Assembly (NCBI GenBank): GCA_023853785.1
Contig: JAJIRX010000871.1
Coordinates: 496,001-560,000, forward strand
From: Psilocybe azurescens
Lineage: Eukaryota > Basidiomycota > Agaricomycetes > Agaricales > Agrocybaceae
DNA: 64,000 nt
Direction of reading: 5' to 3'
Part shown: one piece after another, positions 5,378-58,224 of the stretch
Position numbering within the stretch: position 1 is the stretch's first letter
How the letters are laid out: every line of letters starts with the position of its first letter
Notes under the pieces: model-generated
What the model saw: the letters and a program-made list of their open reading frames with translations, nothing else
What the model was told of the DNA's origin: nothing
Database searches by the model: none
Program-made: the position numbers and the translations under genes

Positions 5378-8190
5378 TTACTGGTCGAGTTTCATCCTCG
5401 AGCTTCTGAACAACTGCACCATCCCAACTGGAATCAGTTTGGGATCCACGACCTCCAAGCCCCCGAACTTCTTCATCACCTCCTCGCCGTACATGCTAAC
5501 CACCCATTTCTCATACCAACTCGTTGAACTCCACTTCCATTTATCCATAACCTCGCGGAGTTTGGGCACAACCTTCAAGGGGAACGTCTCGGGCAACTTG
5601 AGCATGTGCTTGTAGGACTGTCCCCAACCAGCAAGCCAGGACTCGCGCAGGGAGGTGAACTCTTCGAAGGACATAAACTCGTCGTTTACAACTCCCATGT
5701 AGTACCTGGCTCGGCGTTTGTCTTCGTCCCTTTCCCAGACTTCCTTCATGCGTTTGTACGCCTTAGGGTCGTTTTCAATGCGTTTGACGAACTTCTGATC
5801 GGCCATGGCCTCGTCCTCCTCGAAGACCTTATAGTCGTCCAAATCGCTAGAATCATCGCTGCCGGGCTCGCTAGCGGAATCGGAATGCTCAGAGTCATTT
5901 CCCTCTTCATTGTCTGACGCGTGGTCACTGTAGCTGGACAGAGGCCTTCCCTGTCGGTGGAGTGCGAAAAGCTCGAGCATTGTGTTCCTCAGTTCAAGGC
6001 CTCCGCTGCCGATTGGAAAGTAGAAGTAGCCTTCGGGGAGGTCGGCCACGCCAAATCGCTCCTTGAGCGTCTTCCTGAGATATCCCACCGCCCCGCCGTT
6101 GCCATCCGCGGCAGATCCCGGGAAAAGTTCTCGCTGGATGCGGGCAAGAGTATCGATCATGCTGAGGATATGCTTCTTGCTGAAACAGTTCGCGGGAATG
6201 CCACCAAAGTTCCGCATGAAGAACGCCATATACTTGTTGTATGCGTTGATCCAGCCAAAGACGGACTTGGTGCTAGCGAGCTGACGGCGCATCTCCATTA
6301 TATGAAGGTCCACGTCGGCCTGGTTGATCACGAACCGCGACTCTGATGCGTCGAATTTGAGGAATCCCCAGGCTATATCGCCCTTGGGCAACTTGGAAGA
6401 CGATGCGTTCGGGGGTCCGACGTAGGCTGAGCCTGTTTTCTTCTGGTTGAATCTGAGCCCCGCGAGCTCTGCATACTTGTTCATCTCCGCCCAACCGTCG
6501 GCAACCTTCTTGGGATCTGCATCCCAGAGCCAAAGGTCGTCGTGCATCCGGTAGAGGTACAGGCCGTTGGCTCGCTGATTGACAGCAAAGTCCATGATGG
6601 ACATGACGGCCTCTCCGCAGAGTACGCTGAGCGAATAGCTGATGGGTGTTCCCCTTTTTCGTACCCGACTCTCGGTGTCGCCAGCGAAGTACACAGGAGT
6701 GGAGAGAAAAGCTTTATAGAAACCCAGCCATGTTTTGGACATGCCAAAGAACTCGAGGATCGTAAGAATGGATGTGTGTGGAAGTGAGGGACCGAACCAC
6801 TCCAAATCAGAGCAAACGGCTGCATGGGATCCGTGTAAGGCGGTGTTGAGATAGCATTCTGTGGTCATGATGTGAAGGAGCTTTTGCTTGATCGCCGCAC
6901 CGTCTGTGATGTTTTTAGTGTTCTGGTCATCACCAGCTTCGTCATACAGTTTCGGAGTATTGGCCGTATCTTGCAACTGGGTCATGAAGAAATGGTTTTT
7001 CCGCGCCTCGTCTCGCGCAGCCTGAATTGAGGAAGTACCATCGTCGCCTCGTAATCGTTGCTTCCTCTGCTCCTTGACCTTGTGAGTAGGAATATCGGGG
7101 CGAATCCAAGCCTTCCCTTCGAAGATTCTACAAAGGGCGGCTTTGAGCTTGATTTGCCAGGCAACACCGATATAGTGGAGGAGGAGGGCGTCAATAATTT
7201 CTGGATCAGTGAAAGCTCTGACGGGTAAATGATGTTAGAATCGAGTGGCGAATGAGGACCTGAGAAGAAAAACGTACCGGTATTTCCCATTCAAGTGCCG
7301 TCGGAACTCGACTTGAATGCCCTCCTTTGGCCAAGCCCACGAGTCGATACCCGCCATGCGCATGGACAAAACACTCGCAATCTCATCGATGACAATTGCA
7401 TTCTCCTGGAAGGCTTTCAAGGTTGTTCGCTTTTCTTCGTCCATCAACCCGGAGGCCAATAAACCACTGATCGCGTTTTTGACGTCGGTGTTGGAGACCG
7501 GCTGGCGCTTGAACCAATAACTGAAGCTTTTGATTTCTTTACGCAACTTATCGAGAGCCTTGGTCCCCTCCTCCGACTCGAATAACCCTTCTAGATACTC
7601 CTTCAACTTGTCGGCGTCGACAGAGTGGTCGTCGAAGATGATCGAAATGAGCTTTTCCTTCTGCTCGTACATTTCCTTCCGCCCAATTTCCACAAAATCA
7701 GCGCTGGATCCTCCCTTCGCCACTGTGTCTTTTTCATCCGGGCTAGCCTGATACACCACCGCGACGGAGTCACCACTAGCCAGCCATTCGTTGAAGAGGT
7801 TTCCGAAGAGTTTGGCGGCGTCGAATCGAACAACGTTATGTTGGATGTGCTTCTCCAGAGTCGAGGCCCAGCCTTCAGCAATCTCCCGACTAAAACTTGG
7901 ATCCTTCTTTGCCTGTTGCAACCAAAACTCCAAATTGGAAAGGTCAAGTTTACCGCCGACGAGTTTTATAAAGGGGTCAACAGAACCAGAACCGGTCCAC
8001 GATTTGACAGCCTTGGCCAGGACTTCAACCTTTTGATGATATCGCCAGAATCACCTAGCGCTTTGGCCTCGTCCAGGATTTTGGCATGGGCTTGATAGGA
8101 GACTCGTTGCTTCTCGAGCTCGTGGAGCTTGATATCGGTGATAAAATGAAGAGCTTGGCCGAAGGATGATTTGGAAGTAGTGGAAGCCAT
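5378..8190 (-). CDS. rvt: rvt: domesticated reverse-transcriptase-related protein
   Basis: Predicted about 917 aa in two exons (8190-7278 and 7217-5378). The fold is that of the RVT family, single-copy cellular reverse-transcriptase relatives of fungi and some other organisms that are not retrotransposons. The N-terminal third is helical and charged, followed by LLHYIGVAWQIK. The RT core has a motif A-like segment CSDLEWFGPSLPH (Asp about 442), a motif B-like segment around RKRGTPISYSLS, the catalytic RMHDDLWLWD (Asp about 531/532) and motif D-like GLRFNQKKTG. A long C-terminal extension contains an acidic stretch. No integrase, RNase H, LTR or repeat copy is present. One frame break near 8031-8034 is fixed by one more base in a four-T run (plus strand). 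The start at 8190 was chosen because MASTTSKSS begins the conserved N-terminal helix. The gene is divergent from the P4-ATPase across about 1 kb. RVT is known to polymerise NTPs/dNTPs in vitro; its cellular job is unsettled. Confidence 0.85.
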
Positions 8191-9213: not shown

Positions 9214-12200
9214 ATGTCGGATAGCATTCCGCTACACAAACTTGGAAGAAACAATCAACCACGAACAGCGGGTGAAGATACAGGCGTATCCCTTTTTCTA
9301 GACACGAACAACATGCCATCCGCAGTAGTCGCAAAGGCGACCGTTGCGTCGCGGCGTAATCGAGAATACAACTCCAGGAGGAGGGGGGAGCGTTATGCGG
9401 ACGACTCGGATGAAGAGCAGGGGCTTTTAAGATCTGCTACGTTTGAAGAAGATGGTGTTGAAGATGATCAACCGAGAAGGAATCTAAGCCCAGTCAGTTT
9501 TTTCCACATAGGGGATGTGTGTGTACTGTAACACGTTTGAAACGACAGGTACACGACCAACCACCTCCAAAGAGCCCTGCCTTTAGTGCGAAAGACAAAT
9601 CACGAACGATACCCTTTAGCGCTCCAGGTAGTCTGTAATCTTGCTAAACGCTCTTTCTCTTTCTGATCAACTCCTCTAGAAAAGCTACAGTCACGATACC
9701 CTCCAAACACCGTCCGAAATCAAAAGTACAACACTTTGACCTTTCTGCCCATTGTATTCTATGAACAATTCAAATACTTCTACAATCTCTACTTTCTCCT
9801 TGTCGCGTTATCCCAATTCATCCCGGCGCTAAAGATCGGTGCGTATACTGTCTCTACACCCGAAATGTTTTGGCTCATTCAGGATATCAGGCTTCATCGT
9901 GACATATATTGCTCCTCTTGCCTTCGTTCTATTTGTGACGATGGGAAAGGAGGCATACGATGATTACAAACGACATCTACGCGATCGTGAAGCCAACTCA
10001 CAGCGATACCTCATTCTCACCCCTCCCCCAGCATCCCGCTCTGAATCCGACGCAGAACAGGATTACCTCAATACCCACGCAAATACTCGATCTGTGCCTT
10101 CGTCCTCTCTGAAAGTCGGCGACCTCATTCATTTGGAAAAGAACCAGAGAGTGCCAGCGGATCTAGTTCTACTCCATACCTCTGAGGCGTCCGGGACGTG
10201 TTTCATTCGAACGGATCAGCTAGACGGTGAAACGGATTGGAAACTGCGCGTAGCAGTGCCAGAGTGCCAGAAGCTGGATGAAGGTGATCTGGTCAGGCTC
10301 GACGCCGAGATATATGGTCAGCTCGTTTCTTGCTCGGCTGCTATCATACCATATACTAAAACCCGAGCTTAGCCGACGCGCCGATAAAAGACATTCATAC
10401 ATTCATTGGAACATTTACGATGAACAAGCCTCCTATATCCAGGTCATTTTCTGAAAACTCTGTGCCGCTGCATCCTCTTCCACCTAGTGTCTCGCCACTT
10501 ACAGTTGAAAATGTGCTATGGTCAAATTCAGTGCTCGCCGCAGGGTCGGCCGTGGGTTTTGTAATCTACACAGGCTCCGAAACTCGTGCAGTTATGAACA
10601 CCAGCCATCCTGAGACGAAGATGGGTTTGTTGGATTTAGAAATCAACAAACTCTCCAAGGTACGTTTTTACTATTTATAAAAGTTACCGATCAAAAACTG
10701 ACAGTTTCTTTCAGATCCTCTGTGCTGTTACCTTTGCTCTATCGCTTGTCCTTGTAGCCCTAAATGGGTTCAGAGGGCAGTGGTATGTCTATGTGTTCCG
10801 TTTTCTAATTCTTTTCTCTTCGATCATCCCCATCAGGTATGTTTCGCCGTCCTTTCACTGCAGTCAGATATTAACTCTGCCGCAGTTTGCGCGTTAATCT
10901 CGACATGGGAAAGACATTATATGCGCAGCAAATCATGAACGATACAGAAATTCCGAACACAATCGTCCGAACAAGTACCCTTCCGGAAGAACTAGGACGC
11001 ATAACCTACTTGCTTAGCGATAAAACAGGGACGTTGACGCAGAATGGTAAGTTTCGCGTTTTCTGATCTGCCATGGCGCATATATTCACATTTTTTTCCG
11101 CAGAGATGGAGATGAAGAAGCTGCACATGGGTACGATGTCGTATGGCTCAGATTCTATGGATGAAATTGCACATCAGCTGGCTGTTGCTTTTGGTGCGAC
11201 TGGCGAACATGGTCATCAGCGGCAGGGGTCACTCGCTACAGGCGCGCAATTGGCAGTACGGGGTCGGAGAGATATGTCTTCAAGAGTGAAGGATGTGGTC
11301 TTGAGTCTTGCTCTATGTCATAATGTAAGCATTAACCTCCCAATTTACCATTCATTGTTGAATGGGATTGTTTCTAGGTTACTCCTGTAACAAACGACGA
11401 TGGCACAGTAACTTATCAGGCGTCCTCGCCGGACGAGGTCGCCATCGTCACCTGGACCGCGTCGGTTGGCCTCACTCTGACATTCCGAGACCGGACCCGC
11501 ATTACGCTATCCACTCCCAGCGGCACAAGTCTGAACTTCGACATCCTGGACATCTTCCCATTTACCTCGGAGAGCAAACGGATGGGCATCGTCGTGCGCG
11601 ACGCGCAAACGGGCGAGATCACGTTCCTGCAGAAAGGAGCCGACGTGGTGATGGCCAAGATCGTGCAGAAGAACGACTGGCTGGAGGAGGAGACGGCGAA
11701 CATGGCGCGGGAGGGGCTGCGGACGCTGGTCATGGCGCGCAAGCGGATATCGGGCACGCTGTATAAAGAGTTCTCGAGTGCATATTATCAGGCGTCGATT
11801 AGTCTGGAAGGACGGAATGATGCGATGAGCAATGTCGTTGCCAAGTATTTGGAGCATGATTTGGAGCTGTTGGGATTGACGGGTGTTGAGGATAAATTGC
11901 AGGATGATGTGAAGGGCACATTGGAGCTCTTGCGGAATGCTGGAATCAAGATTTGGATGCTGACGGGGGATAAAGTTGAGACTGCAAGATGTATTGCCAT
12001 CTCAACGAAATTGGTTGCGAGAGGACAGTACATCCACGAAATGGCCAAGTGTGCGTTGTCATTTCACTTTTGGATTGTTATTCTGATTTGGCTCATACAT
12101 CCTTCCTGCGTTCTTCAGTGAAGACGGGCGATCAAGTTAGAGATCAGCTAGACTTTTTGCAGAACAAACTTGATTGTTGTCTTGTCATTGATGGCGAAAC

Positions 12201-26991: not shown

Positions 26992-28509
26992 CTAGTCGTC
27001 GCCGATCTTGGGCGCGAGGTAGTACAGGATGTATCCCTGGGTGAAGTCGTATGCGACCTAGAGAGAGAAAGGGGAAAAGAGTAAGTCAGTGAGTAGGTGT
27101 AGCTTTCGAGAGATTATGATTGTGCGAACGGGGAAAGAATGATGGGAAAGAGAAAGAAAGGACGAGAAAATTCAAAGATAGCGAGAATCAAAAAAAAAAA
27201 TCAAAAAGAAAGAAATCAAGAAAACCCACCAACAACGGCACATCATTACGCATCAACAACTGCACCTCGCCGCTCACACTCGCGCTCTTGGAGAAGTTGA
27301 CCAAATATTTGAGGGAGAAGGTGAGCGAGACGTGCTGGTTCATCTCGATGACGACGCCCGCGGGGATGCTGTTGTCGCCCTCGTCTTCAGCAGGGGACTT
27401 GGCTTCGCCTTTGGACTAGGATGACTTTTTTGGAGGGTTTGGAGGAGCCGTTTGCCTGTGGGGACGAAAGGGAAAGGGTATTAATACAGCAAGGAATTTG
27501 AAGGTAGAAGGCGAAAAGCAGCATACATTTTTCTTCCGCTTCTTGTTATCTCCATCCTCATCGTCCTCTTCCCCATCGTCCTCTTTCTCGTCCTCGCCAT
27601 CTTCGTCGTCGTCCGCCTTGGGCTTGAACGATTCTTCGTCCTCATTCTCATCGTCGTCCTCGACCATCTCGATGTTCACGTCCGCTTTTTCCTCCTTGAT
27701 CTTGGGTTTCTTCGCCTTCTTCGCTTTCACACCGCCCTCCTCGTCATCATCATCCACCTTAGCCTCCTCATCCGCCTCGCCCGACCCCTCCGTGCCTTCC
27801 TCCACCTTTGGCTTAATCGTGCCCCCACTCACATGGCCCCCATCGCTCTGCCTCAACAATACACTCCCGTTCGCAGCCTCGCCGTCGCTCGCAAACCGCA
27901 CGCCCTCCTTGGACACCTCGATGCGCACGCTCTCGCTGAGCCGCGAGAGGTCGCGCACGATGCGGGTGAGCTCGGCGGACGGGAGGGTGACGCGGGCGTC
28001 GTATTCGGTCTCGGGGATGGTGAGGGTGTCGGCGTCGATGTCCATGAGCTTCATGTCGTATTCGGCGATGCGGTCCGAGTCTGCGAGGGGGGGAGGGATT
28101 AGATGGATGGGTGAGGAGGAGGGAAGGGGGGAAGGAAGAGGGGAGAGAAAGAGAAAGAAAATAAAGCACGCGTCGCGCCCACCAGCAAACGGGAGAAGGA
28201 GCAAGAAAGAAAAGAGAGGACGCATCGCGCCCATGCCACATGAACGCGAAAAAAAGTAGAAAAAAACGTACTCTTGGCTTCATACACCAGATTCAGCACG
28301 TAGGCCTGGTCCGCGGCCTTTAACGTGCAAATATCGTCGTCCTTCGCGCACCTGAGCACCTTGGTCAGCAAGGTGAGGTTGACGCCCAGCGGCATGGGCC
28401 TGTCGCAGCGATAGAGCGTGAAGCCCGGCGCGCAGAGCTTGAATGGCACGAACACAACGTGTGAGTTATCCATGGCTTGCAGAACGATGCCCTCTTCGTT
28501 GCATTCAAA
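26992..28509 (-). CDS. PCNA: PCNA sliding clamp with large acidic insertion, 5' end not found
   Basis: DNA polymerase processivity clamp, nuclear. Exons: 28509-28272 (from FECNEEGIVLQAMDNSH), 28080-27527, 27415-27230, 27057-26992. The body is clearly PCNA: YRCDRPMPLGVNL, KLMDIDADTL, RIVRDLSRLSESVRIEVS, VSLTFSLKYLVNFSKS, DVPLLVAYDF and the C-terminal LAPKIGDD. Two oddities. First, between SVLLRQSDG and GVVIEMNQHV, normally a loop of about ten residues, there are about 120 residues rich in Asp/Glu with Lys clusters (KAKKAKKPKIK). Second, the conserved start (about residues 1-31, usually M-L-E-A...) is not present in the 360 bases upstream. A bare ATG-CTC at 28583-28578 and a possible splice to GGC at 28491 would give a clamp lacking that segment. 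See findings. Confidence 0.85.
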
Positions 28510-49947: not shown

Positions 49948-52171
49948 TCAACGACCCAGGTTGCGAAGCATTACATCATGCAATGCACATTCGTCATCCT
50001 TGAACAACAGAGTCAGGCATTTCCAGTGTGGAAAGAGTTTAACGCAATAAATACCTGATCCAGAGACCATGTAAAGCATCCACCCATCCCAGATTTCTTC
50101 GCAAACGAAGTTTTGCTGGCTATGCTGAAAGGATCATCATAACTGACAACAGTGGTTCGATTTACATTGAAAAGAAACTTCACAAAATAAAAATGTCAAC
50201 GTTCACATGACTATTATAAAGTAGAAAATGAAGTCTCGAACCGGAGTATCGCTGCAATCGTCCCACCCTGATAAATCGAGCATGTCAGTCATGATTCCAT
50301 ATTGAAGCATTTAGCCATACCCATTGTATACCCATTAGCTCCACAATAACTCCCGTCTTGCTTTTTGTTCAAAGCCCCCAACTCAACCAGTTGACTAAAC
50401 GCAATTTGTTGACCCCACATTTTACTGAGATCACCTTGAGCTCCTGATAACCGAATGCTGCGTTTCGTTTTAGGGTGGGCGATAGTATGTATCAATCTAG
50501 ATGGAAGAAGGCTTCCCGAAAGCTTCTTGTCCGCGCTTTTCGAGACATATCCGTAGAGGGGTAGTCCAAGAAGCAGCTTGGAGGCAGGCATTCCGGCATG
50601 GGTCCACTGGGTAAAAGCAGCCTCAGCTGTTGCAGTTGGTTGACGGCTCGTTCCACATCCATCACCTTGAACTCGTAATAAGTCGGTGTAAACGCTTGCA
50701 TCTTAGTTGATATATTACTTAGCGGTGCATTAGGGCCGGGATGAGAGGATGAAGAAAAGACGTCATAATTCCTAAACAAATTATGTCAATATACTGACAT
50801 TTTCTCGGTGTTCAACCAAGGAAACTGACATGATGTTAACGAAGCTCATATATTTCGCATATTCTGCCACATTGGAGAGGGGGAGCCGTTTGGTCCTAAC
50901 CATGGAAGTTGAGTTACTGCCGCAGATATAACTTTCGAATTTCCTGGCGACAGAAACTAGTCATCACAGAGTATTTTTGCAGAAATGTGTGTTACTTACC
51001 AAGGGTGTTGCGAAGCGCTTTAAAAAAGCTCAAAAGGTTTGCAGCGTCCTCTGGGGAATGAGGGTTGCCAGATCCCGAAGAATTGGGATACTCCTTTGAT
51101 ACGATATACGTTAGATGATATTTCAACCAGTTTGGACAGAGATAAGATAGAAACCTACCCAATCTATGTCAATGCCTAAATTTAGCGGAATGTTAGTATC
51201 ATATGTTATTTTATACTACATTCAAAGGACCTACCATCTAAACCGTACGAGTCGACAGTTTCAGCAAGAGTTTTGACCAGTTTAGATCGATTGACTTCTG
51301 TCGACATTGCTTGACTATACCAGTGGCAACCACTCCAGCCCCCTATTATAGCGCATATATTCAATCAAAGGGTACTTTTATTCAAGAAAATAACTTGCCA
51401 ACGGAGAGCACGATTTTTGTTGAATGTCCACTTCTACGCACACAAGAAACAAGGTTCCTGAGAACATCTTGGGCGCCATCATCCCAGTTTATACCAGCAT
51501 CACCATTCGGAGTAGCAAATGCTAGAGACATTGATGAGAAAGACGAATGCACACAAGAAAATTTTTGACACAAACCAAAGAAAAGAATGTCGAACTTGGA
51601 AAAGTCAATCTTGTGCGGCGGACTGGTATCAGATGCCCACGATGGGTAATAGGCCGCGGCGATGGGCTTCGTTGTTCTCTCTGGCTCGTTGCTAGTGGTT
51701 CCATCCGACGCCAAGGACCCTTTCGAGGTCATCTCTGGCAATGCCAGACTGGGCCAGACTCTGGAGTCATGGACCACGAGGTTACCAGCCCCGATGAAGA
51801 AAAGAAAGTCAGGGGCAAAACGAAGCCCCAGATGATGAAGGAGGTAAGTCAGAAACATCTGGAGCCCGCGTTTTCTCTCCTCAATAAGCTCGTTGTCGAT
51901 CCAAGCCGAGGGTAAGAATGAGGTGACCAATGCATGCTTTGGTGGCAATGGAAAAGAGTCTCCAAGGTTCTCTTTCAATGTCACAAACTATAACAAGACG
52001 TATTAGGGCGCATATATGCACTCAAATGACGAGACTTACCTCAGAATAACGTCGGAGGACTTCATATTGGCTACCGTTGTCGCGAACCACGTTAATGATG
52101 TACACGACGTGGGGCAGAGGGGTCGACGACGTAGTGTGGTTGTATATGAAGAGTGAGTTAATAGCAGACAT
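49948..52171 (-). CDS. PX domain-GH18 chitinase fusion, copy A
   Basis: N-terminal PX (phosphoinositide-binding) domain: HVVYIINVVRD, the key LRRYSE, FVTLKENLGDSFPLPPK, then IEERKRGLQMFLTYLL. A single open exon (from 51984 to about 51550) runs from this into the first GH18 strand, AAYYPSWASD and KIDFSKFDILFFG. The GH18 barrel continues with FATPNGDAGINWDDG, IVLSVG and the catalytic DGIDIDWEYPNS (Glu codon 51093-51091, after an intron), then GLPLYGYVSKS, TMGMAKCFNM, VVSYDDPFS and GGCFTWSLDQ. The last exon ends in TGA at 49948-49950. The start at 52171 leaves no signal peptide. Chitin-chain hydrolysis is inferred from the intact D-x-x-D-x-D-x-E motif; location at PI-rich membranes is inferred from PX. 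It is the downstream-most of three tandem copies. Confidence 0.85.
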
Positions 52172-52445
52172 AGAAGTAAGAGGATGAGGGGGAATAAGGA
52201 TAAAACATCTGTGAAGCATGGTATTTAACAGCTCCTAGGGTTTGTATGCATTTGTGCAAACGTCAATGGAAGAGGAAACTTCTTTTCCAGATTTAGCCAT
52301 TGGGTGTCAACACTTCAAAAGCCAAATCAAAATTAGAAAACAAGTTCCTATTGGAATTCGGTGGTAAGCAATACAATTCAAAAGGTCGTCGCGGTCGTAA
52401 TAAGTATCTTCGTTAATGAACAAAAAGGACAGGCTCGATATGCAA

Positions 52446-54963
52446 TTATTTACCCATTGCTGTTCGGATCACGTCCTGAAGGGAGCTCCCATCGTCCTGG
52501 AGGATTCGGCGTAATTAGTAGGGGTCTGAAGTATGCCAAATCGGTTGATTGAAGCTCACCTGATCAAGGGACCAAGTGCAGCATCCTGCTAAATCATTCT
52601 CCTGGGCAAACTTTACTTTTGCAGCAAGAGATCGAGTGTCTAGAGCGGGTGGTCAGTTATCTTGGCCTGATTCCGAAGAAAACGGTAAATTTACTGTCAA
52701 AAGTAATTAAAGTCTTCTTCTCGACACTGAATATATACTGCACAGAATGCATTAGAACATGGACCTTCAATAACAAAGGTGTATGTCTTACAGGAGTAGA
52801 GCTCGGATCGTCCCAACCTGCCATAACGCATCAAGTGACGAATTACAGCGCATATATGAGTAAAATAATATACCCAAAGTGAAACCATCCCCATGTCCAT
52901 AATTTCCGTCAAATCGCTTGACCAGCGCACCTGAGGCCACGATGTCTTTGAACGCAATCGGTTTGCCCCACCAAGCAGCCAATGCCCCCTTCGAGTTGGG
53001 TTTCTTGACGAGATCCTTGATGAAGACAGCTTTATGCGCACCCTTGAACGTGTGGCTGGCAAAAGAGAGGATGTTGTCAGCGACAGAGGGAAGGAGTGCC
53101 TCCATTCAGAGCCGTTTTCTTGCTTTTGAATACATGGCCAAACAGGGGCAAACCAAGCAATATCTAAAGAAAAGCATTTGAATAAAAAGACATTCAAAAA
53201 AAATAAGGAACAAACCTGTGCAGATGGAAAGCCAGCCGTTTTCCATCGAAGAAGTCCCGCTTCTGCTGTAGTTTGCACTCTCCTCTGGTTCTTGACGACT
53301 TGGCCTGATAAAGTCACAATATTAGTTCTGAGTCCTAATCATGAAGAGAAAGCAATTTTACCCAATGGCGCATTAGGACCTGGAGAAGATGTGCCCCAAA
53401 CACTGTAATTCCTGTTACAACCTCAGTTCAAGCGACTTCAATAACAAAGTCAAATTCATACATGATGTTAATGTAGCTCAAACTCTCCGCATAAGCAGAC
53501 ACATCGTTGAGGGTGACGCCGTCTGCACCGGCCCAAGGAGCATGCTGGACTGCAGCAGAAATAATCTTTGCAGGACCTGGAGAAAAATCAACAATTGTGA
53601 GTCATTCTAGGCAGCGCAACAGTGTCATCAACCGCTTACCTAATGCAGAACGCAGCGATTGAATCAATAGCAGGAAATTGGCAGCGTCATGGGACGAGTA
53701 GGGATTTCCAGCTCCTTTAGAGTTAGGGAATTCCTGATGATACATCATATTGTCATCTCATTACAAAATGTCTTTAAGAAAGATAAACATACCCAGTCAA
53801 GGTCAACACCTAAAAGAGTCAACATTCAGATTCAGAACAAAGCCAGATGGCGAAATAGAAAGACGAACCATCCAATCCATACGCATTGACAGCGGTCTGC
53901 ACTGCTTGTACGAAAGTGACTCGATTGTTGGCCGAGGCACAAAGGTGACTGAACCATTGACTGCCGTTCCAGCCACCTATAAGAGTAGGAAAAGTGGTCA
54001 GACAAATAAGAAAGAATCAATATAGACAGCGACATAATCTCACCGATAGACAGCGCTATCTTGGTACCGGAGCCACTGGCCTTTGCGCTTGCCACCATAC
54101 GCTTGAGTATAGACTTGGTATCACGGCCCCAATCAAGTGTCGACGATGCGTTAGGGGTCGCAAAACCTAAACGAAGCACAAGCAAACCCGAAAAATCAGT
54201 CAAAAGAAGGCAAAGAGGCACTGGAGCATTCATGACCCCACCGAAAAAGATAACATCGAACTTCCCGTAATCCAAGCTCTCGGGAGGAACAGTGCCAGCA
54301 CACCACTCCGGATAATAAGCCGCAGAAATAAGCTTCTTCTTCGACTCCTCTTCCCGCTCTGGCTCTGGCTCTGGCTCCTCTTCTTGTTCTTGCTCCCGCT
54401 CGTCCTCCTCCAGAGTTAGCTCCTGGACCTGATCCCGAAGAGAAAAAACGCCGACACGTCCTTCCTCGTTAATGTCGACGGCAAAACATCCTCAACATCG
54501 ATATTCTCATCAGGCTTGAGCATATCCCTTTCAAGGAAGCCTTTGATAATCGGAGTGTCGTGATATTCAGGCGACCACAGTAGCGCAGAGAGGTACTTGG
54601 CTAACCCGATCTTGCGCTCTGCGATCAACGCGTCGTCCAGCCATCCAGATGGTAAAATCGCTGTGAGGATTGCATGCTTCGGAGGGAGCGCGAACCCGTC
54701 TCCTAGTGCCTCTATAAATGAAAAGATGAGATGAGAGACTTCAACGTAAAGAAAAGAAGTGATATATCGTACCATGAAGCGCTACAAACTGTTCAATTCG
54801 TCAGAACCATCCAAAAACTGAAGAAAGAAGGTAAACACACCTCAGAATATCTTCGTTGTATAACCAACTTCGAAGTCTCCAAAGAGACTTCAACGACATA
54901 TACAACATGCGGATACGGCTTCGAAGTCGTAGTGTGCTTATTGATAACCACAGAGACAGCCAT
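52446..54963 (-). CDS. PX domain-GH18 chitinase fusion, copy B
   Basis: Same architecture as copy A. PX: MAVSVVINKHTTTSK, PHVVYVVEV, QRRYSE, LGDGFALPPKHAIL, LIAERKIGLAKYLSALL. A linker PSTLTRKDVSAFF leads to a strongly acidic stretch rich in Glu, Gln and Pro, then GH18: ISAAYYPEW, LDYGKFDVIFFG, FATPNASSTLDWG, IALSIG, catalytic DGVDLDWEFPNS, HMLPWA-like strand near 53535, WWGKPIAFKDI, CCTWSLDQ and a final exon ending in TAA (52446-52448). The frame between linker and acidic stretch needs one more base in the A run at 54443-54448 (plus strand). The central C-terminal exons around 53050-53200 are poorly resolved. No signal peptide. Confidence 0.82.
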
Positions 54964-55698
54964 GACAAAAAAGTCCCCACACGAACAGCCAGGAGAAGGA
55001 GGACGAGGACTCGGGGCGACGATTATATAGAGCATCCCTGCCCTCCATGTCCTCCCTCCATTGCCCGACAACACATAACCAGCCTTCTCGCTGAAAAGTA
55101 TCGTGTCTCACAAACACCACCGCCGACTTCCTTTCTGAGACTGCGCACAGGCGTAGGCGCTGGTCCGGCTATGAGGGTGAAACCAGTGCTGTTGACGCGG
55201 CGGTCATGCGAAGAAGCCAAACATATGAAAGCCGAATAGTTCTCTTCAGGAAAGGAAAGCTAGGATCCGCTGTGTGTCTGACATTCTGCGTTCAAGTAAA
55301 CCACCAAAGCAAGAGATTGGGCAAGAAAAAGGGTAATGCATTCAACAAGAAGGCCATCAACATGAATGTTTGAGAAAAAGTCGCGATGCGACCCCAGCTC
55401 CCACGCGCCGCTGAATACGCGAGAGCCCCTATTTAGGCAATTCAAGAGAAATCAAAAATCGGGAGGCAAGACACAAAAGTCATAGTTGATCACATTTGGG
55501 GGCATAAGCACTAGCACTATTACATGATACAAATGAGCACAGTAGCACTAAATACATAAGACAAGATCTATCAAGAAAAGTAACACTTATAATATCAAAA
55601 TGAGTCCAGAATCCTTTCAAAGTCACGCTCGCAGACCGGCTGAGAACCACACATCCCTCGGGGTGTATTCAAGAACGCGGTCAAAGATACGAGTACTT
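54964..55698. other. intergenic region between chitinase copies B and C
   Basis: About 0.73 kb that should hold the 3' end signals of copy C and the promoter of copy B. ORFs here have no recognisable content. No leftover GH18 or PX fragment was seen. Confidence 0.45.
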
Positions 55699-58224
55699 CT
55701 ACTTTCCAAGGCCCTTGCGTATGGCGTTGTGCAAGGTGATGCCATCATCCTAAAAGTCCCAGCACATACATCAACACACGCAAAAAGAAAAAGAATCAAA
55801 GAGCGACAAACCTGATCAAGAGACCAAGTAGCGCACCCAGCCATACCGCTCGGAAACAGCGAGCTTCGCCTTTATCGGTAAGAGACCAAGTATCTAACAC
55901 AAAATCCATCGTCAGCGAAAAAAAAAATCTTATTCACAAAACACTCACCGTCATAAGTCACAACCGTGCCCTGGTCCTTGTTGAAAAGATACTAAAAAAA
56001 AAAGACGTCCAAAAGAAATCAGCACCATCTACCAAAAAAAAAAATTAATGAAAGCGAAACGAAGCGTACAGGGTGTTACTGCAGTTGTCCCAACCCATCG
56101 TAAACCCACCCGCCTGTCCATAATTCCCATCTGACCTCTTAACAAGCGCGCTAGCCTTCACAATATCGCTAAACGCGATCTGCTTGCCCCAGTACCCCGT
56201 AAGATTCGCAACAGCCGCAGCCGCAGGGGCCTCAACCTCAGGGTTGGTAACCTGCGGCGTCGTATTCGGATGCGCGCCGTTCAAAAACTCCATCGCCTCG
56301 ACCTTGCCATCCGGGCCCTTGGTCTCCTTCTTCTGCAGGAGCAGCATCTCGGCGGAGGGCACAGAGCTGCCTGTCAGGACCGTCTTGGTGCTCTTGGAGA
56401 CGTACCCGTAGAGCGGCAGTCCCAGGATGAGCTGGCGAGAAAGCACAAAAGGACAACGTCAGAAAAGAAAGATTTTTCAGGTGTGTTGATGGTTAGACGC
56501 ACCTTGTTGCCGGGGAACTTGGCGGCGGTCCATTGTTTGTAGGCGGCGTGCGCGCTTGCTTGAGGCTGCCACGACGTTCCGCACAGGTTGCCTATCAAAA
56601 CGAAACGAAGATTCGACATCTCATCGCATCCATCCAACGCGATACAGAAGACGTACCGTACGGCGCATTAGGACCGGGAGTAGCAGAAGCACCCCAAACA
56701 TCGTAATTCCTATTCAAAAAAAGAAGAAAATGTTGAATACCAAAAACGTACAGCCGAAAACGGAAAACACAACGAACATGATCATAAGATAATCCATCTC
56801 AGCCGCGAACGCCGAGACGTCAGTGAGCGGCGCGCCGTTGGATCCCAACCAGGGCATGTGGGATACAGCGGCAGAGATGATCTTGCACGGTCCTGAAGGA
56901 AAGGACAGGAAAGGGAACAACACAAGATCAGCAAAAATCATCGCAGACAATCATGAGAGGAAGGTCGTACCAAGAGAGACCCTCAAGAGCTTGATCAGAC
57001 TGAGGAGATTGGCAGTGTCAGCAGCAGAGTAAGGTTGACCAGCTCCAGGAGAGTTGGGGAATTCCTACGACGAAAATACGAGAATGTCAATATTCCTGAA
57101 AAGAAGTAACATTGAATACAATGAGACGATGTACCCAGTCAAGATCGACACCTAGCAAAAAGGAATCGTTAAGATTAAGATGACACTGCAAAAGAAAGAA
57201 AGAAAGAATAACTGACCATCGAGGTTGTAAGTATTGATAGCGGAAGCGATCGAATTGGCGAACTTGGTTCGATTTGCAGAGGTCGAGCACGCCTGGCTGA
57301 AGTACTGGCATCCACCCCATCCACCTGACAAGACAATCTTAGACAGGAACATCAGAATGCTATCTGTTCGACGTACCGATGGAGATAACAACGCGGGTGC
57401 CCTGGCCGCTGCTGCGAGCCGCAGTGACCAAGCGCCTCAGAAGCGCCGTGTTGCTGATATCAAGCGTGTTGGACGAGGTGGGGACACCAAACGCTGAGCA
57501 AAAGGTACAAAATGGTCAGCGTTCAAGACCGCACCAAGAAAAAGTTGCACGACTAACCATAGAAAAGCAAATCAAACTTGGAGTAGTCGATGTTCTCAGG
57601 AGGACGATTACTGGACCAAGAAGGGTAATAAGCCCCCGCAATCATGCTCGCATTCGCGGCGGCGGCGGCGACGCCTTCACTTGGCTCACTCGCCGCGATC
57701 TGCATCGCCTCCTTCCTAGTGAGCGTCGAAGGCAGCGCGTCCTCCGGGTCGAACTTCATATCGCGCTCGATGGTCTGCGCGGAGAGAAACTCGTAGAGAA
57801 GGGACTTGTCCTTGTATTTCGGGGTGGAGAGCAGGTCGACGAGGTACTCGGCGAGCCCGGCTTTGCGCTCTGCGATGAGCTCGTCGTCGACCCATGCGGA
57901 GGGGAATAAAAGTCGTCGCCAGAAGGCGCTTGGGAGGAAGGGTGTAAGGATCCTTTAAGGCCTCTATATCATGGATTAGAATTTGATTCAAGTACGCGAG
58001 GGATGGTGTTTCAACATACCATGAAGAGTGACAAACTGCAACGGTTCAAAGAAACATTTTATCAGCGCGTAGCCCGAACAGCAGAGAATGAACAACCCAC
58101 CTCAGAATAACGTCTATGCGCAGTCAAACCCTTACCATCAACATTGGCGTTGATAGTATAGATAATATGCGCACGGGGCTTTAGAAGCGGTGGTATGGCT
58201 GGAGATGGTAACAGTGGGTGCCAT
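55699..58224 (-). CDS. PX domain-GH18 chitinase fusion, copy C
   Basis: The ATG at 58224 reads MAPTVTISSHTTASK, then AHIIYTINANVDGKG and HRRYSE, then DPYTLPPKRLL, DDELIAERKAGLAEYLVDLL (PX end). The linker is DMKFDPEDALPSTLTRKE, as in copy B, followed by an Ala-rich spacer. GH18 follows: AGAYYPSWSS, IDYSKFDLLFYG, catalytic DGVDLDWEFPNS, GLPLYGYVSKS, KQIAFSDIVKASALVKR, GFTMGWDNCSN, YLFNKDQGTVVTYD, AGCATWSLDQ and a last exon NAIRKGLGK with TAG at 55699-55701. Three single-base breaks (near 57905, near 58174 and at the A run 55854-55856) interrupt the frame, two as an extra C and one as a missing T in coding sense. Catalytic residues are intact. No signal peptide. Confidence 0.8.

Follow-up and report, generated by a model that had tools for sequence, protein, structure and literature searches.

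Tandem genes of Psilocybe azurescens encode proteins that join a PX domain to a GH18 chitinase domain, an architecture common among mushroom-forming fungi

A chitinase on the cytosolic face of a membrane has no obvious substrate, yet proteins that would place one there have kept the key residues of both halves near-invariant in at least 173 relatives from mushroom fungi. What such proteins may do is the question raised by a locus of Psilocybe azurescens. The window (the whole stretch of DNA that was analysed, 64,000 nucleotides) carries three tandem minus-strand genes, C, B and A, each of which encodes a PX-GH18 protein in hand-spliced models. Their features are:

55699..58224, minus strand: copy C, PX-GH18 gene (564-position spliced model; start at 58224)
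57778..58124, minus strand: PX match of copy C (model residues 36-111; span with introns)
55747..57633, minus strand: GH18 match of copy C (model residues 160-549; span with introns)
52446..54963, minus strand: copy B, PX-GH18 gene (565-position model)
54527..54873, minus strand: PX match of copy B (model residues 31-108; span with introns)
52494..54323, minus strand: GH18 match of copy B (model residues 177-550; span with introns)
49948..52171, minus strand: copy A, PX-GH18 gene (535-position model; last base of the stop codon at 49948)
51793..52078, minus strand: PX match of copy A (model residues 32-109; span with one intron)
49996..51657, minus strand: GH18 match of copy A (model residues 155-520; span with introns)
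51577..51987, minus strand: exon 2 of copy A, open throughout and covering the second part of PX, the linker and the first GH18 strand

Both domains of the spliced models score above the Pfam cut-offs in all three copies: (i) PX (PF00787, cut-off 21.6 bits), with 38.5 bits in A, 35.0 in B and 39.8 in C (E-values of 1.7e-9, 2.2e-8 and 7e-10), and (ii) GH18 (PF00704, cut-off 29.6 bits), with 189.5, 178.3 and 160.6 bits, respectively (E-values of 1.5e-55, 4e-52 and 9.9e-47). A preliminary description of this DNA had read three tandem PX-GH18 genes in the interval, had named this profile search as a check and had placed PX and the first GH18 strand of copy A in one exon; the models and profiles agree with it, and 51987-51577 is unbroken. 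The 11 introns of copy A measure 47-65 nt (ten GT-AG and one GC-AG). For the other two copies, intron borders were set with a tolerance of up to 6 nt, which gives 14 introns in B, all placed as GT-AG, and 13 in C, of which 12 are placed as GT-AG and one has an ambiguous border. The relatives are the best 120 matches of each search, two lists that together hold at least 173 distinct proteins. Both Pfam domains are present in 168 of the 173 relatives among the matches listed; of the other five, four have a PX domain (one partial) by the PX profile, which found none in P0287. Because the exon of copy A is continuous and most of the listed relatives have both domains, a gene-model artefact is ruled out. 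The PX-GH18 architecture is genuine, is common in fungi that form mushrooms and is annotated in many Agaricomycetes.

Single-base frame breaks, which the preliminary description does not mention, occur in all three copies: one in A (in the GH18 part), two in B and four in C, with perhaps one more in C at an intron edge. If the breaks are real rather than sequence errors, none of the three proteins is uninterrupted. Among seven Hsp70 loci of the same assembly, three have abutting frame switches (two of them read by eye), one has overlapping frames, one has a gap of unclear kind and two have no break over the compared part. As Hsp70 genes are broken in the same way, error is favoured over decay, and the breaks in A, B and C look like assembly errors. 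Decay of the three genes into pseudogenes would fit the breaks found in each copy, and a GH18 gene elsewhere in the genome (on contig C470), spliced by eye, showed none; this alternative is nonetheless highly improbable, and was set aside as the main reading after the Hsp70 comparison, as database proteins of P. cubensis match all three copies and the key residues are intact in every copy, with the exception of one Asp of B described below. Among the matches listed, P. cubensis P0103 is closest to copy C (90%) and P. cubensis P0001 to copy B (83%), and the closest Psilocybe protein to copy A is P. cubensis P0242 (76% over 88%).

The PX domains of A, B and C have the Arg-Tyr, Lys and Arg residues expected from p40phox, which are taken here to be the positions of its PI3P contacts. 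Among the 173 matches listed, these contacts are kept as Arg in 169, Tyr in 157 (Phe in a further 13), Lys in 167 (Arg in a further 4) and Arg in 172, and a Trp is found in the expected membrane-insertion loop in 172. The best solved match to the PX domain of one relative, P0017, is a designed CISK PX (E-value of 1.2e-6). A signal peptide is not found in A (1.62), B (1.60) or C (0.73), all of which fall below the line of 1.9 in a crude test that used N-terminal hydropathy only, in place of SignalP.

The favoured reading, given a probability of about 0.4, is that of a chitinase made in the cytosol, held on phosphoinositide membranes and put to use, with no passage through the ER, at septa, in vacuoles or in autolysing cells. 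After synthesis in the cytosol, the N-terminal PX domain would dock the protein on phosphoinositide membranes, most likely those that carry PI3P, on endosomes or vacuoles. Docking would keep the GH18 domain and may bring it, with the ER route bypassed, to chitin or chito-oligosaccharides, with septa, vacuoles that take up wall debris and autolysing cells as the predicted meeting places. The absence of an obvious substrate before release counts against this reading. Signal-less fungal chitinases with links to autolysis are known, and the low N-terminal hydropathy would also suit a reserve that is stored on internal membranes via PX and acts only at lysis, with no regulated export. Such a reserve is unlikely, as the near-invariance of the PI3P contacts suggests more than passive storage.

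The catalytic motif DxxDxDxE of GH18 is whole in A, B and C. Among the 173 matches listed, its three Asp residues are kept in 155, 169 and 172, respectively, the last of these being the Asp two positions before the catalytic Glu, which is itself kept in all 173; the Tyr of the MxYD motif is likewise found in 173 and a barrel Trp in 170. The MxYD motif is important in the active site of active GH18 chitinases. Copies A and C have this motif, and in copy B its Asp is replaced by Ser. The three copies fall into separate old clades, each of which recurs in other genera. In the clade of B (B and nine mates), all 10 members lack the MxYD Asp and have Ser or Gly in its place; the remaining 164 relatives among the matches listed retain it, so that within this set the loss is confined to the B clade. 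Three of the ten also have Asn at the second Asp of the catalytic motif. Trees built separately from PX and from GH18 both recover the B clade, and the PX-only tree places copy A on a long branch without support. Thus, the copies are not equivalent: those of the A and C types should be hydrolases, and B-type copies should be weakened or altered in activity, as judged from these residues. The B clade provides a natural comparison between an altered active site and the canonical ones of the other two copies.

The copies differ from one another by 0.39-0.45, 0.31-0.33 and 0.62-0.67 at the first, second and third codon positions, respectively. The B-C pair has a dN of 0.48 and a dS of 2.25; dS is unusable for A-B and A-C. 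Together with the conserved residues, these values support old tandem paralogs that appear to have been maintained under constraint. The preliminary description had likewise held that selection keeps the diverged copies, and this stands, as do the fusion itself, the PX contact residues, the intact D-x-x-D-x-D-x-E motif and, by the crude hydropathy test, the lack of a signal peptide in each copy. Its suggested roles, namely control of chitin-synthase-carrying vesicles, binding of chitin oligomers or defence, are conjectural. Its view that the architecture was undescribed does not stand: in addition to the annotations in many Agaricomycetes, PX-domain chitinases are reported in the available text of PMC8097845.

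One such chitinase is reported from Ganoderma boninense and another from Phanerochaete chrysosporium, the latter expressed but 'chitinolytically inactive' (PMC8097845, citing Karlsson et al. 2016, Fungal Ecology 22:52). The reported proteins are chitinases with PX, as here, and P0050 of Phanerochaete sordida and P0105 and P0106 of Ganoderma belong to the present family. Among the matches listed, Coprinopsis is represented by C. marcescibilis alone (P0044). A PX-domain chitinase is thus already in print; what is added here is the tandem arrangement, the clades, the residue conservation and the loss of the MxYD Asp in the B clade, analyses that are absent from the account of the Ganoderma and Phanerochaete proteins in the available text of PMC8097845.

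The inactivity of the Phanerochaete protein, known at second hand, counts against a membrane-held chitinase. It agrees with a pseudo-enzyme that is held at endosomes by PX and binds or senses chito-oligosaccharides, with no need for hydrolysis, and the residue losses of the B clade point the same way. Binders, however, usually lose the catalytic Glu and the Asp two before it over such time, and the retention of these residues, and of the MxYD Asp outside the B clade, makes this alternative rather unlikely. Intact catalytic residues combined with the reported lack of chitin hydrolysis could instead indicate a cytosolic hydrolase of another GlcNAc glycan at endosome or vacuole membranes, for example an ENGase-like enzyme that acts on the chitobiose core of free N-glycans. 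The EndoS barrel model gives matches of 23.3 bits in A, 20.5 in C and 12.7 in B, but these are below the cut-off of 27, and weak matches of this sort are to be expected among proteins with the GH18 fold. By sequence, the best solved GH18 matches are chitinases (that of Rhizomucor miehei with P0017 as the query and 5gzu with the query profile), and this hydrolase is very unlikely. For the favoured membrane-held chitinase, the destination, once found, would reveal an ER-independent placement of wall enzymes or, alternatively, a cytosolic role for chito-oligosaccharide binding.

A parallel to the favoured reading is provided by Cts1 of Ustilago maydis, a GH18 chitinase that has no signal peptide and is secreted unconventionally (PMC12167484, PMC6386918). 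The placement of Cts1 depends on phosphoinositide binding and on the partner Jps1 (PMC12167484). A signal-less GH18 protein and, as predicted for PX-GH18, a dependence on phosphoinositides are common to both systems; the Ustilago system, however, uses two separate proteins, and a single PX-GH18 polypeptide would do the job of both. Jps1 lacks a canonical PIP-binding domain and binds preferentially to PI(4,5)P2 (PMC12167484), and the parallel is therefore functional only. An extension of this idea, quite unlikely as a whole, is that Agaricomycetes evolved unconventional delivery by one polypeptide, in which PX replaced the signal peptide and GH18 would travel via PI3P membranes to septa or the outside; the trio may then have divided its tasks, members of the B clade having become oligomer binders, either non-hydrolysing or altered, that possibly regulate the neighbouring copies.

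When the genome was searched with copy B, no PX domain beyond the cluster matched except that of locus L023 on contig C864 (37% over residues 4-106), which scores 60 bits with the family PX profile and for which Pfam lists PX alone. It has PX like the cluster copies but no GH18 was found; a coil follows instead, and we take the tail to be Vam7-like and the coil SNARE-like. PX was not found beside other GH18 genes in 13 locus records covering 11 contig places (the GH18 place on C604 was left out), in a scan that could miss intron-split PX pieces and had the Vam7-like locus as its sole match. Outside the cluster, copy B has its longest match in the C470 gene (44% over residues 228-417), and the PX profile found no PX in the 120 best proteins of the C470 family (P0121-P0240). 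A strict linker motif between the domains, which copy A lacks by eye, occurs in 76 of the 120 best relatives versus 0 of 120 in the C470 family. The C470 family shares GH18 with the cluster but has a hydrophobic N-terminal stretch (hydropathy line of 1.9) in 106 of its 120 best matches, compared to 7 of the 120 best PX-GH18 relatives.

Copies A, B and C lie in tandem on the minus strand and follow one another from right to left along the window in the order C, B, A, in models that were spliced by hand with frame breaks marked X:

58224-55699, minus strand, copy C, PX-GH18 gene (hand splicing)
54963-52446, minus strand, copy B, PX-GH18 gene (hand splicing)
52171-49948, minus strand, copy A, PX-GH18 gene (hand splicing)

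The three tandem fusions of the preliminary description are borne out on the spliced proteins, in which both Pfam domains exceed their cut-offs in A, B and C: (i) PX, with significant HMM scores of 38.5, 35.0 and 39.8 bits (cut-off 21.6), and (ii) GH18, with 189.5, 178.3 and 160.6 bits (cut-off 29.6). The GH18 motif DxxDxDxE is intact in each copy and, as had been proposed, PX and the first GH18 strand share an exon in copy A, where exon 2 (51987-51577) is unbroken from the second part of PX into that strand. The copy A model has 11 introns of 47-65 nt, ten GT-AG and one GC-AG (intron 3, 51398-51343, minus strand), at which the B and C models use GT-AG. The models of B (14 introns, all set as GT-AG) and C (13 introns, one with an unclear border) permit border shifts of up to 6 nt. 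An intron inside PX in B (54773-54713) and C (58020-57965; both minus strand, give or take a few nt) is absent from A, through either loss in A or gain in B and C.

The PX-GH18 architecture, thought undescribed at first, is already known, and A, B and C are new members of it; the present analysis adds the active-site change in the B clade, the recurrence of the trio and the counts of conserved residues. Protein searches, in which only the 8000 candidates with most shared words were scored, return 197 matches for copy B and 2055 for copy A at E 1e-3 or better; the best 120 of each give 173 distinct relatives, with both Pfam domains in 168 of these listed matches. Of the other five, a PX profile recovers PX in P0103, P0088, P0284 and partly P0253, and finds none in P0287, a protein with a different additional domain whose gene model may be a fusion. 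The named sources among the listed matches, which from their genus names we take to be Agaricomycetes, include Agaricales, Polyporales, Gloeophyllales, Auriculariales and other orders.

Key residues are nearly invariant in both halves of the 173 listed relatives. The PX residues, which we equate with the PI3P contacts of p40phox, are the first Arg (169), Tyr (157, with Phe in 13), Lys (167, with Arg in 4), a later Arg (172) and a loop Trp (172). In GH18, the three Asp of the motif are kept in 155, 169 and 172 and the Glu in 173, alongside Met (171), Tyr (173) and a barrel Trp (170). This near invariance suggests that the functions of both halves probably matter. The linker between them has a conserved motif close to ED(A/V)LPSTLSRK (P0017 residues 120-129 and relatives), five positions of which are nearly invariant in the family alignment; it is not seen in copy A.

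The Asp of the GH18 active-site motif MxYD is kept in 164 of the 173 and replaced by Ser in 6 and Gly in 3. In a 176-row tree these nine relatives group with copy B in a clade that contains no other row (10 rows, support 1.0), and three of its members also carry Asn in place of the second Asp of DxxDxDxE. Since the loss is confined to this clade, B is, as read from its residues, a distinct active-site type.

A tree of 53 proteins (50 picked from the first 120 relatives, with A, B and C) sets B in a group of 10 (100/100), C in 10 (99/96) and A in 6 (100/99). Single-domain trees (35 relatives with A, B and C) give the identical 10-row B clade from PX and GH18 (96 and 100) and a nearly equal C clade (9 rows at 89 from PX, 10 at 96 from GH18). 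The A clade is present in the GH18 tree (6 rows, 99) and is not recovered in the PX tree, which leaves A unplaced on a long branch. In a quick tree built from the 173 listed relatives and the three copies, a group of 10 rows (0.98) joins A to P0242, P0241, P0245, P0249 and others, and one of 9 rows (0.96) joins C to P0103, P0055, P0028 and others. The fusion predates the split of the B clade at least. Contigs of equal length point to genes of the A, B and C types lying together on one contig in Agrocybe pediades (P0249, P0002, P0055) and in Pholiota conissans (P0247, P0007, P0028). Codon-position differences among the copies are 0.39-0.45, 0.31-0.33 and 0.62-0.67, in equal order in PX and GH18; for B-C, dN is 0.48 and dS 2.25, while dS is not computable for pairs with A.

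In the searched assembly (70.4 Mb, 937 contigs; window on contig C750), copy B matches with both halves only in this cluster, and elsewhere finds GH18 parts and one PX. A family PX profile detects no PX in 13 records of GH18 loci, taken from 11 contig places, a search in which it did match a Vam7-like PX locus (L023), nor in 120 listed proteins of the C470 family, to which belongs a non-cluster GH18 of this assembly that shares 98% identity with a protein from Psilocybe cyanescens. Judged by this one gene, the host is probably a Psilocybe related closely to P. cyanescens. A 10-residue hydropathy test over the first 30 residues, with a self-chosen line of 1.9 and distinct from SignalP, upholds the claimed lack of a signal peptide in every copy (A 1.62, B 1.60, C 0.73); 7 of 120 PX-GH18 proteins (best 120 of 197) exceed the line versus 106 of 120 listed C470-family proteins.

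PIP binding by PX is predicted and likely. Hydrolysis by the A and C types, set against a second-hand report of inactivity, is predicted with less assurance, as somewhat more probable than not. The proposed route of the protein to chitin is the weakest step of the reading, and a doubtful one. In the part of PMC12167484 consulted, export of the signal-less Ustilago chitinase Cts1 depends on the PI(4,5)P2-binding Jps1, and Hebeloma cylindrosporum is noted to have a GH18 chitinase for which no signal peptide is predicted; that text does not say whether either Hebeloma PX-GH18 protein among the listed matches (P0003, P0244) is meant. The passages drawn from PMC6386918, PMC11076350, PMC7399148, PMC13220806, PMC13301363 and PMC2614207 name no PX-domain chitinase.

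Frame breaks number one in A, two in B and four in C, with a possible fifth at an intron border, and are most likely assembly errors. Hsp70 loci of the same assembly served as control: two read by eye lose frame within a conserved stretch, and tblastn gives abutting frame switches at 3 of 7 (L031, L033, L035), overlapping frames at L034, a gap at L036, perhaps an intron, and no switch at L030 and L032 over the compared part. The C470 gene, however, spliced by eye, has no visible break, which counts against assembly error. Counterparts in P. cubensis among the listed matches are P0242 for A (76% over 88%), P0001 for B (83%) and P0103 for C (90%). Within each of the contig pairs C831/C174 and C746/C108, the PX matches agree in score and range; with the Hsp70 breaks, these indicate an assembly that may in part hold two haplotypes and has single-base errors.

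Other features in the window are as follows:

5378-8050, minus strand, reverse-transcriptase-like ORF (618 aa; RVT_1 23.3 bits, below cut-off), with a 271-aa ORF upstream; probably a mobile element
11378-12121, plus strand, P-type ATPase fragment, which we take to resemble a P4 flippase
27416-28279, minus strand, PCNA C-terminal domain (63.6 bits in Pfam), of which only the first half is covered, then about 90 very acidic, lysine-rich residues in the same frame, either an insert of unusual kind or sequence left unspliced
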